Positions 20,825 to 31,420 of a stretch of DNA of 54,226 bases are shown one piece after another. Positions within the stretch are counted from its first letter, which is position 1. Each line of letters opens with the position of its first letter. Source of the stretch: Streptococcaceae bacterium AM104-57 (GTDB lineage Bacteria; Bacillota; Bacilli; Lactobacillales; Streptococcaceae); the NCBI GenBank assembly GCA_027659245.1, contig JAQDPW010000013.1, positions 1,846 through 56,071 on the forward strand. Direction: 5' to 3'. Both the position numbers and the translations under genes were made by a program. Below the pieces are notes generated by a model, which was not told the origin of the DNA, searched no databases, and was given only the letters and a program-made list of their open reading frames with translations.

Positions 20825-21658
20825 TTACTTTTTCTTTTTCTGTGCTTTCTTGAGAGCTTTTCTCTTCTTACCTTCTAAATCCTTCTGAGCCTGTACTCCC
20901 GCCTCACGCTCTGCAATAATCTTAAATGGATTGTTGAGCAGATAGGTTTGTAGCACCTGATAAGCATTGGATACCGCCCAGTATAAGGCAACCCCACTTG
21001 GTGAATACATGGCAAAGAAGAAAATCATGACTGGAATTGCATACATCATTCCTGTCATGGCACCATTTTTCTCAACCATGGCCTTATTGGATAACCAAGT
21101 GCTAAGGAAAGTAAAGATAGCTGCCAAAATTGGCAAAACAAAAGTCGTATCTACACCACCAAGGTTAATCCATAAGAAATGACCCGTTTTTAGAAATTCT
21201 ACCCTACTCAAAGCTTGGAACAAGGCCAACAAGACTGGCATTTGGATTAAGATTGGCCAAAGAGAAGCTGACTGCTTCACACCATGTTGCTTGAACAACT
21301 GACGCATTTCTTGATCAAGCTTGGTACGGCTCTCCATATCCCGTCCCGGATAACGTTCTCGCAACTCCTTAACAAGTGGTTGTACTTCTTGCATCTTTCT
21401 AGATGCCACCATTTGTATTTGAAAAACTGGTAGAAGAATCGTTCTAATCAGAAGGGTAAATAATATAATCCCCAGACCAATACTTGTATCAAATGATAAA
21501 AAGCGAATGGTTTCAGCAAAAAAATAAACAAATTTACTCCAAAAATCTGTTGATTCCGCTGTAATCTCACTCGGCGTACCACTAGCTGTGCAGGCGCTCA
21601 TCACAAATAAAGCAAGCACCATTAAGCTAGTCAACTGTAATTTCTTTTTCACTCCCAT
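20825..21658 (-). CDS. yidC: Membrane protein insertase YidC (lipoprotein)
   Basis: Inserts membrane proteins alone or with Sec. 277 residues; signal sequence with lipobox VMSAC, lipidated Cys23. Five transmembrane segments follow the Gram-positive YidC plan, with the conserved Arg in [14 protein letters not shown] of the first helix and a lysine-rich tail ([16 protein letters not shown]) for ribosome contact. It overlaps rnpA by 32 bases. Streptococci usually have two YidC paralogues; this is the rnpA-linked one. Confidence 0.95.
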
Positions 21659-21998
21659 TTCCTTCCTGGTAAATCTTTGATAACTTTAATACGTGAAGTA
21701 GATTTTTTTCCATTTCCGCGTAGTCCAAGATTTCAACACCTTTTCGAGCAATCACAACAAAATCTACATTTTCAACCAGCTGATCTTTATGTTCAATCAG
21801 AATATGTCGAATTCTTCTCTTGATCTGATTCCTCGTGACAGCGTTTCCTAATTTTTTACTGACAGATAGGCCAACTCGAAAATGCTGTTCATTATTTTCT
21901 AATCGATAAATAACAAATTTACGATTAGCAAAACTCTCCCCTTTTTTAAATATTGCACTAAAATCTTTCTCTTTTTTTACACGAAAGCGTTTTTTCAA
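21627..21998 (-). CDS. rnpA: Ribonuclease P protein component
   Basis: Protein subunit of RNase P, which matures tRNA 5' ends. 123 residues, start codon TTG (21998-21996) with GGAG seven bases upstream. Family motif [10 protein letters not shown] around 57-66 and the [14 protein letters not shown] strand. The TTG start and the 32-bp overlap with yidC couple expression of the two. rpmH, its usual neighbour in many bacteria, is absent here. Confidence 0.96.
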
Positions 21999-22028: not shown

Positions 22029-22056
22029 ATTATACCATAATTTTTCAAAAAGCCAA
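22029..22056 (-). promoter_or_regulatory. Promoter of rnpA-yidC-khpB
   Basis: Minus strand TTGGCT (22056-22051), 16-bp spacer, TATAAT (22034-22029) with extended TGG immediately upstream. Confidence 0.75.
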
Positions 22057-22179
22057 TCATAGCAAGGTTTTAGCCCATGTTTACCTAATAAAAAGACATA
22101 TTTTCACTCTAAAATCATCATCTTTTTTCAAAAATTTCTCAAATTTGGGCATACAAGTCTGCTCATTTCTGATCAGAAA
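22057..22179. other. Gene-free AT-rich spacer
   Basis: Between the rnpA promoter and the small RNA terminator. No ORF or clear structure seen. Confidence 0.5.
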
Positions 22180-22269
22180 AAAACAAAAGTCACCCTTTGG
22201 AGTGACTTTTGTAGGAGATTATTATGAAAAAGTTAGGATTTCTATTAAATAAAGTTAGGAGGTCTTTAT
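22180..22269 (-). ncRNA. CiaR-dependent small RNA (csRNA family)
   Basis: A predicted RNA of about 90 bases on minus, running from about 22269 to the T-run near 22177-22183. The 5' stem-loop AAUAAAG / CUUUAUU presents ACCUCCUAA in its loop, and AUCUCCU recurs further on; both are anti-Shine-Dalgarno sequences. The 3' end is a 10-bp terminator hairpin (CAAAAGUCAC / GUGACUUUUG) with a long U tail. Two unpaired UCCU segments, a terminator and a CiaR promoter are the hallmarks of streptococcal csRNAs (ccn genes), which repress translation initiation of several targets. It lies between the DUF711 gene and rnpA. I cannot say which numbered csRNA it is. Confidence 0.85.
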
Positions 22270-22275
22270 TTAATA

Positions 22276-22313
22276 ATTATAGTATACACGTCTATCCTTA
22301 AACCCAACTTAAA
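22276..22313 (-). promoter_or_regulatory. CiaR-box promoter of the small RNA
   Basis: Minus strand TTTAAG-N5-TTTAAG at 22313-22297, the CiaR direct repeat, then TATAAT at 22281-22276. No other -35 is present, as in CiaR-activated promoters. Confidence 0.85.
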
Positions 22314-22329
22314 CAGATTCCACTTCTTT

Positions 22330-23667
22330 TTAATTTTTAAAACTATGGATTGGAGCCGGGATTTGTCCTCCACGTGCAATAAAATCAACAGACGAGGCAC
22401 CGTTGACTTTCATGACTGGCGCTGTTCCTAAAAGCCCACCAAACTCAATCATATCGCCTTCTTTTCCTTTTGGAATAATACGTACAGCTGTTGTTTTCAT
22501 ATTGATGACCCCGATAGCAGCTTCATCAGCAATCATTGCCGCAATCGTTTCTGCAGGTGTATCCTCAGGAATGGCAATCATATCCAAACCAACTGAACAG
22601 ATTGCCGTCATAGCTTCTAGTTTTTCCAAATTAAGGGAGCCATTTTGCACAGCAGCAATCATCCCCTCGTCCTCAGAAACTGGGATAAAAGCACCTGATA
22701 AACCACCAACTTGGTTGCAGGCCATCACTCCGCCCTTCTTAACTTGGTCGTTCAAAAGAGCCAAGGCAGCAGTCGTTCCATGGGTCCCAACTGTTTCTAG
22801 TCCCATTTCTTCAAGAACACGAGCTACAGAATCACCCACTGCTGGAGTCGGAGCCAAGCTCAGATCGACAATTCCAAAATCAACTCCCAGACGCTCACTA
22901 GCCATCTGACCGACTAATTGACCAATACGGGTAATCTTGAAGGCTGTCTTTTTAACAGTTTCTGCTACAACATCAAAACTCTGACCACGAACCTTTTCTA
23001 GGGCACGTTTGACAACACCCGGTCCTGAAACACCCACATTAATGATAACATCTGCTTCACCTACTCCATGGAAGGCACCTGCCATAAAAGGATTGTCCTC
23101 TACCGCGTTGGCAAATACAACTAATTTAGCAGCACCCATATCAGACAGAGAAGCTGTCTCCTTGATAATACGCCCCATATCCGCTACTGCAGTCATATTG
23201 ATACCCGATTTGGTAGAACCGATATTTACCGATGAACAAACCTTATCTGTTTCTGCCAAAGCACGAGGAATGGAATTGATGAGAATCTCATCACCTTTTT
23301 GGTAACCCTTTTGTACCAAGGCAGAAAAACCACCAATGAAGTCAACACCAATTTCTTTCGCAGCTTTATCCAGTGCTTTAGCTAAGACTACATAATCCGT
23401 CGCATCAGTAGCAGCACCGATCAAGGAAATTGGAGTTACGGACACACGTTTATTTACAATGGGAATGCCCAACTCAGCCGCAATTTCATCTCCAACAGCC
23501 ACTAAATTAGCCGCCTTGGTTGTAATCTTTTGATAAATTTTCTCCGCAGCACGATTGATATCTGTATCAATACAGTCTAAGAGAGAGATACCCATAGTGA
23601 TTGTCCGAATATCAAAATTCTGCTCCTCAATCATAGCGATTGTTTCGGTAACTTGTCTAATATCCAT
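22330..23667 (-). CDS. DUF711 / UPF0210 family protein
   Basis: 445 residues, matching a conserved streptococcal protein with a TIM-barrel-like fold of the DUF711 family. Sequence features: [32 protein letters not shown] at the start (the conserved opening), [40 protein letters not shown], and the C-terminal [25 protein letters not shown]. Soluble. It follows an ACT-domain protein by 8 bases, so the pair is an operon; the ACT domain often senses amino acids, suggesting a small-molecule link. Function is not known. Confidence 0.85.
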
Positions 23668-24206: not shown

Positions 24207-24593
24207 TTATACTAATTCGATGATCGCCATTGGCGCTGCATCACCACGACGTGGTTCAGTTTTAAGGATACGAGTGTATCCACCGTTACGTTCAGCATAA
24301 CGAGGTGCGATTTCTGAGAACAATTTTTGAAGTGCTGTAGTAGAAGTGTACTTATCAGTTGCTTCATCATAGTTTTCAGATGCGATTTCATTACGTACGA
24401 AAGCAGCTGCTTGACGACGTGCATGCAAATCACCACGTTTACCTAGAGTAATCATTTTTTCAACAGTTTTACGGATTTCTTTAGCACGAGCTTCAGTTGT
24501 CACGATTGATTCGTTAATCAAAAGGTCAGTTGTCAAATCGCGAAGCATTGCTTTACGTTGTGAGCTAGTGCGTCCTAGTTTACGGTAAGCCAT
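24207..24593 (-). CDS. rplQ: 50S ribosomal protein L17
   Basis: 128 residues, full length ([20 protein letters not shown] ... [12 protein letters not shown]), with the conserved [12 protein letters not shown] segment. Last gene of the ribosomal operon, 11 bases after rpoA. L17 sits near the peptide exit tunnel of the large subunit. AGGAGG precedes the ATG. Confidence 0.98.
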
Positions 24594-31232: not shown

Positions 31233-31420
31233 GTTTATTTTCTCCTGTTAGATTGTCAGGCCGTGATGGCCAGTTTTCACGGGGGTTAAATCGATTTCTC
31301 GATTTAAAGGAACATTTAGGTTTCAATTTTAAAGTGAATCTAGGCATCGTCTCACAGGCATAACTTTGGGTTAGGCAAGAGACGATAACGACGAGTCACA
31401 AAGAAATTGGGAGCTAAATA
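31233..31420 (-). other. rpsH-rplF spacer with repeat-like stem-loops
   Basis: Hairpins: GGCC-GTGAT-GGCC near 31260, TTAAATCGA-TTTC-TCGATTTAA near 31285-31307, and ATCGTCTC (31346-31353) / GAGACGAT (31379-31386). The last encloses CAGGCATAACTT (31355-31366), a 12-mer also found in the element at 50231-50242, each followed within 30-90 bases by TAACGACG. No ORF. Confidence 0.5.

Follow-up and report, generated by a model that had tools for sequence, protein, structure and literature searches.

A csRNA-family small RNA gene downstream of DUF711 in a Mitis-group streptococcus: a short counterpart of csRNA5/CcnE with comC as its leading predicted target

The interval between a DUF711 gene and rnpA in Streptococcaceae bacterium AM104-57 raises the question of whether it encodes a small regulatory RNA and, if so, which one and against which messages. 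The window analysed here is a stretch of 54,226 nucleotides that contains this interval. The preliminary description had read the interval as a csRNA gene under a CiaR promoter, and the covariance model, promoter, structure, terminator and conservation all agree with that interpretation. We consider the locus to be a real, conserved and ordinary csRNA gene, as expected in a Mitis-group streptococcus, and its product to be, very probably, a free-standing, CiaR-activated, trans-acting RNA of the csRNA family. What the analysis itself shows is the sequence of the promoter, the predicted structure and the terminator, together with membership of the family, conservation and the positional counterpart. 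Our analysis adds the placement of the exact member (the ccnE locus, in a short form) and the name of its likeliest target.

The rule by which csRNA promoters were sought in earlier work sets a distance of ten bases between the CiaR repeat and the -10 box (Marx et al., PMC3091779). On the reverse strand of the window, the arrangement NTTAAG-N5-TTTAAG followed 10 bases on by a -10 box is present at 22313-22281, and the TTTAAG-N5-TTTAAG repeat that had been claimed is indeed perfect (22313-22297). The claimed TATAAT exists as a string at 22281-22276, but it stands 15 bases from the repeat; the -10 box at the family spacing is TATACT (22286-22281), which overlaps it by one base and sits at ten. 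TATACT at the 10-base spacing recurs in all 25 loci having a CiaR site within 700 bases of DUF711. When at most one mismatch is allowed, the window contains a single instance of the pattern repeat-N10-TATAMT, and 100 dinucleotide shuffles contain none. A looser scan for CiaR sites returned two sites compared with 0.65 expected, and the second, at 31304 (+), was rejected as being at chance level. The transcript start, 22274, is predicted from the rule of Marx et al. (7 bases past the -10 box).

Table 1. Features of the csRNA locus and its neighbours, in window coordinates.
Feature	Coordinates	Strand	Basis
csRNA gene at the csRNA5/ccnE position; csRNA1(Uo5)-like; 92 nt, U tail not counted	22183..22274	-	Rfam RF02379
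CiaR-binding direct repeat, TTTAAG-TTGGG-TTTAAG (TTTAAG-N5-TTTAAG)	22297..22313	-	exact match, 0 mismatches
csRNA -10 box, TATACT	22281..22286	-	10 bases past CiaR repeat; spacing rule of Marx et al. and conservation in loci
5' hairpin, 11 bp, CCUCCU (anti-SD) in loop	22244..22274	-	predicted fold
Linker carrying CAU (anti-AUG) and UCUCC (anti-SD), predicted mRNA-binding part	22213..22243	-	predicted fold, conservation, comC pairing
Intrinsic terminator, 13-bp stem, 4-base loop, T-run	22177..22212	-	
DUF711 gene, neighbour upstream of csRNA	22330..23667	-	Pfam PF05167
rnpA, RNase P protein, neighbour, outside csRNA	21627..21998	-	Pfam PF00825
rnpA promoter-like site, TTGGCT-N16-TATAAT, TG before -10	22029..22056	-	consensus scan

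The covariance search that had been recommended matched RF02379 at 22274-22183 (-) with 93.2 bits (E 8.5e-12) over model positions 1-93 of 93, compared with a curated cut-off of 57 bits. The gene is intergenic, Pfam confirms both of the neighbours that had been named, and it ends in an intrinsic terminator. It is invisible to protein-based annotation, as anticipated, and Rfam does detect it. From the predicted start to the end of the terminator hairpin, the RNA measures 92 nt plus a U tail, rather than the 90 bases first proposed. In the predicted fold (z = -5.53; none of 200 shuffles equally stable), the CCUCCU and UCUCCU segments are both accessible, as had been claimed: the 5' hairpin presents CCUCCU (nt 13-18) in its loop, and the unpaired linker carries UCUCCU (nt 57-62). 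The linker is unpaired except for one weak 4-bp hairpin, whose 3' arm contains part of the anti-AUG. Fold and sequence thus reproduce the anti-SD/anti-AUG layout of the family. The terminator hairpin spans 22212-22183 (-) and is followed by six T; its stem, described previously as perfect, comprises 12 Watson-Crick pairs and one G-U pair in the window. Two other RNA elements were found in the window, Spd-sr37 (RF02419) at 48261-48195 (-), with 88.8 bits compared with a cut-off of 45, and an L17DE element (RF01708) at 24191-24119 (-), with 74 bits compared with a cut-off of 37, which lies just downstream of the gene 24207-24593, rplQ by eye.

Conservation was assessed in an alignment of 13 rows, in which the window was joined by 12 short-form loci out of the 18 defined below; five of the other six duplicate an included row over the stretch, and the sixth, L048, is interrupted by N. 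The predicted pairs are kept in 99.7% of 308 cells, compared with 39-57% when the partner is slid. Cells with both-sided changes number 13, compared with a shuffled mean of 4.5, and none of 500 shuffles reached this number. Two of the five covariation measures fail to exceed shuffles: the number of pairs with a both-sided change (3; 260 of 500 shuffles) and the number of further pair types (9; 483 of 500). Within-pair variation is confined to the terminator helix, in which three of 13 pairs show both-sided changes and 164 of 165 cells (99.4%) are paired; all 11 pairs of the 5' hairpin are invariant in the 13 rows and provide no covariation evidence for or against it. The linker is strongly conserved from nt 44 to nt 60. 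Across the genus, 133 of 197 genomes have an RF02379 match, and in 113 it exceeds the cut-off. A search of phage records with 22100-22340 gave no match, and plasmid records gave 26 matches, all of 60-80% identity; among the 20 of these 26 that were listed, each covers 46-47% of the query at the DUF711 (PFL family) end and none covers the csRNA.

These comparisons bear on two other readings of the locus. The RNA could be a decayed or silent copy, redundant with five or so paralogues. Relatives do carry several paralogues, seven RF02379 matches with six above the cut-off in the nearest genome (G001) and six, all above the cut-off, in the relative G101, and suppression of competence in S. pneumoniae does not need all csRNAs (PMC4507080). 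However, the promoter, the linker and both hairpins of this copy are intact and conserved, and the terminator has changed on both sides of its stem, and we regard decay as very improbable. In G101, seven strict CiaR promoters were found, five of which drive csRNAs. The second reading is that of a small protein, MKKLGF..., encoded on the opposite (+) strand behind a good SD. An SD-ATG with 25 codons is present in both the window and L055, with 23 of 25 residues identical, but among the 14 of 15 rows having the SD-ATG, the length of the frame varies from 4 to 25 codons and the reading diverges past the first codons; row L063, as written, is without the SD-ATG. Such a look is, moreover, the necessary mirror image of an anti-SD/anti-AUG RNA. 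The frame is not conserved across the 15 rows, and the peptide was rejected, its probability being practically negligible.

The neighbouring rnpA raises a rival reading of the element, as a leader or attenuator, or as a CiaR-controlled extra promoter, of rnpA-yidC-jag, which lies downstream on the same strand; read-through would then tie the supply of RNase P and membrane insertase to CiaR stress signalling. The end of the hairpin and the rnpA start codon are 184 bases apart, and the DUF711-csRNA-rnpA junction recurs in 21 of 194 genomes (20 contiguous; G129 in two pieces), with rnpA inside the fetched flank of 10 of 80 DUF711 loci. The 13-bp terminator, however, stands in between, and rnpA has its own promoter-like site with an extended -10. 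In the S. oralis-like genomes listed, homology on the DUF711 side reaches approximately 22212-22206, where the terminator starts, and homology on the rnpA side begins at approximately 22096-22071, just before the promoter-like site at 22056-22029. Where rnpA lies elsewhere in the genome, DUF711 is still accompanied by the csRNA, and rnpA by the promoter-like site. Because one block of homology ends at the terminator and the other begins before the promoter-like site, the csRNA appears to belong with DUF711 and rnpA appears to carry its own promoter, the two having been joined in this clade by a rearrangement. The pairing of csRNA and rnpA thus looks like a by-product of rearrangement, and on account of this synteny and the separate promoter-like site we reject the leader reading as very improbable. 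The portions of the csRNA literature consulted do not mention the rnpA junction, which does not prove that it is absent from that literature.

Entry of islands (PMC4863584) and prophages (PMC9764711) at csRNA genes has been reported. In G101 (C1, 299203-301281), two csRNA copies, identical over a 99-nt match, flank a gene pair that is ABC-transporter-like by eye; this pair lies just before a gene that is ruvB-like by eye and resembles the csRNA-bounded islands described for S. oralis (PMC4863584). In L048 (7419-7518), a run of N lies inside the csRNA, with csRNA 5' sequence on either side, and the match in G129 (C34) is split in two at the corresponding spot. The run of N resembles a gap in the assembly at a repeat or a tandem copy.

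For a free-standing csRNA, we propose that phosphorylated CiaR would bind the TTTAAG repeat and start the 92-nt transcript, which would stop at its own terminator. The unpaired linker, perhaps together with the CCUCCU loop, would then pair in trans with several mRNAs at their Shine-Dalgarno and start-codon regions and would block ribosomes jointly with the other csRNAs of the cell. Its expression, CiaR dependence, translational repression and targets are what we infer.

Target prediction at ribosome binding sites, which the preliminary description had called for, was performed in G101, which is 93% identical to the window over 974 bases around the locus. Simple in-house calling, with no trained gene finder, gave 2096 genes; after one short region was dropped, 2095 start regions were scored, and a duplicate of comC added as a check brought the set to 2096. 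With opening energy, comC ranks 9 of 2096 (its duplicate 10th), and with the linker alone it ranks 19 of 2095. Its best rank with 40 mononucleotide-shuffled linkers was 268, and none of the 40 did as well. In the predicted pairing, 13 + 6 nt of comC are matched to the linker; an exact complement of at least 13 nt is present in nine of the 2095 start regions, comC included. The ComC protein of G101 matches NCBIfam NF033214 with 53.1 bits compared with a cut-off of 50. Of nine ComC loci, all but L273 were paired with the window linker: five that share the same start region give -22.4 kcal/mol, G096 gives -22.8, and two others give -16.7 and -11.1. ComC had no match in three of the 10 genomes searched.

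Genome-wide pairing energies are not clearly beyond those of 20 shuffled linkers (mean -15.4 vs. -13.9, sd 1.0); the 1% quantile is -26.6, compared with a shuffled mean of -24.6 and a lowest shuffled value of -27.5, and the minimum is -31.4 compared with -31.7. Complementarity to the SD makes the predicted target lists noisy. For S. pneumoniae, BrnQ and NirC are among the likely csRNA targets reported; in G101, neither is supported, the BrnQ orthologue ranking 1105 and the NirC-like orthologues 873 and 939 of 2096. Three other high-scoring candidates in G101, all identified by eye, are a substrate-binding lipoprotein (1652112) with a 17-nt exact match, an LplB-like permease (399886) and a LacI-type regulator (206501); with opening energy they rank 34, 122 and 465 of 2096, respectively. 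Control of comC by csRNAs in S. pneumoniae is supported by compensatory mutants, requires several csRNAs and is weakest for csRNA5 (PMC4507080). According to the predicted pairing, the csRNA of the window probably blocks translation of the competence-signal gene comC, among others, and comC heads the candidate targets in this clade as well.

G101 has a candidate CiaRH pair, a response regulator with a 406-residue protein next to it downstream, which looks like CiaRH by N-terminal sequence. No CiaR model was among the 25 NCBIfam matches listed for the response regulator, no CiaR name was among the best 60 of its 280 matches to solved structures, many of which are response regulators, and the 150 bases preceding it contain no CiaR-like repeat. 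Northern blots revealed csRNAs in S. mitis, S. oralis and S. sanguinis, and those of S. oralis vanished in a ciaR mutant (PMC3091779).

The identity of the csRNA was approached through its position. With the DUF711 protein as the query, the best 80 of 553 loci were examined, and the CiaR promoter scan of whole loci covers L001-L007 and L038-L075. A CiaR promoter lies within 700 bases downstream of DUF711 in 25 of the 80 loci, and seven further loci (L049, L050, L053, L056, L059, L061 and L064) have one approximately 1.5 kb further on; from L070 to L117, the 700 bases contain none. In total, 32 of the 80 loci, all within L038 to L069, carry a csRNA downstream of DUF711, 18 of them in a short form of S. 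oralis/infantis type (17 complete; L048 interrupted by N) and 14 in the long 148-149-nt csRNA5/CcnE form of S. mitis/pneumoniae type. L049, from S. pneumoniae, has the long form downstream of DUF711; it is the only one of the seven more distant loci that was read, and an extra gene directly follows DUF711 there, before the long csRNA5. SP0239 of S. pneumoniae is presumably the DUF711 gene. The literature locates csRNA5/CcnE between SP0239 and SP0240 (PMC2887815, PMC3395615). The csRNA of the window is therefore the positional counterpart of csRNA5/CcnE, in a shorter form; in the portions of the csRNA literature consulted, the short RNA of S. oralis/infantis is nowhere equated with csRNA5, which does not prove that this has gone unstated elsewhere.

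The direction of change between the two forms was read from a tree of DUF711 and the upstream stretch (38 rows), in which only the branching among the 33 csRNA-bearing rows was used. The 14 long-form rows group together (support 88/100) and are nested in a branch shared with eight S. oralis-type short forms (85/97). The window groups with ten short forms of S. infantis/taonis/peroris type (80/83, drawn open). A single change between the forms suffices in 86% of 200 bootstrap trees, although the bootstrap had not converged. Very long branches lead to the outgroups, a probable result of non-homology of the added upstream sequence there. The single nested group argues, with moderate support, that the long csRNA5 form is derived and arose once. 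L044 and L055, which are named S. pseudopneumoniae (843_SPSE, 342_SPSE), group with S. oralis and infantis/taonis rows and are possibly misnamed. As a tentative proposal, to which we would give slightly less than an even chance, the window may keep the ancestral short csRNA of the ccnE locus, and an insert in the 5' hairpin, acquired a single time in the S. mitis/pneumoniae branch, may have turned csRNA5 into the odd member, which acts least on comC, raises early competence promoters and has been implicated in lung infection; the short form of S. oralis and S. infantis would still be an ordinary comC repressor. The short form, seemingly older than the pneumococcal long form, would lend itself naturally to comparison with csRNA5 and its unexplained behaviour.

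S. infantis ATCC 700779 (L068), which we take to be the same strain as GTC849, carries a csRNA downstream of DUF711 (L068, 7394-7487). This is despite the published statement that S. infantis is without csRNA1 (PMC4863584); four csRNAs are listed for S. infantis GTC849 in a review (PMC8186281). The divergent terminator of L068 may explain its omission from csRNA1 counts.

Among known systems, the csRNA of the window shares with csRNA5/CcnE of S. pneumoniae and S. mitis the position after DUF711, the kind of promoter and the kind of linker. It differs in that the long form contains approximately 55 extra nt within the 5' hairpin, whereas the window RNA has 92 nt without this insert; the S. pneumoniae L049 copy and the S. 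mitis L052 copy are identical to it at 73 and 74 of 92 bases, respectively. With csRNA1-1 of S. sanguinis SK36, likened by description, it shares the family and the proposed mechanism, but the target reported there is pilT (PMC8186281). By position, we infer from size, order and orientation (Table 2 of PMC3091779) that its counterpart in S. oralis Uo5 is csRNA1. The rule of Marx et al. assigns csRNAs to one type when their identity reaches 80% and no indel covers three or more consecutive bases; the copy downstream of DUF711 in S. oralis DD21, which was compared in place of that of Uo5, is identical at 82 of 92 bases over 98 alignment columns. The terminator stem sequence differs from the csRNA1 (Uo5) type, and in the S. 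oralis loci fetched rnpA is not downstream of the csRNA, whereas it is in the window. The L015 copy of G096, whose coordinates are those of csRNA1 of S. mitis B6 (PMC3091779), is identical at 83 of 92 bases. Compared with the csRNA family RF02379 as a whole, the window RNA has the full-length model match, the CiaR promoter, the two hairpins, the anti-SD/anti-AUG linker and the terminator, and it differs by ordinary sequence drift only, its linker being one A shorter (CCUAAC for CCUAAAC), a variant that also occurs in rows L038, L043 and L055.
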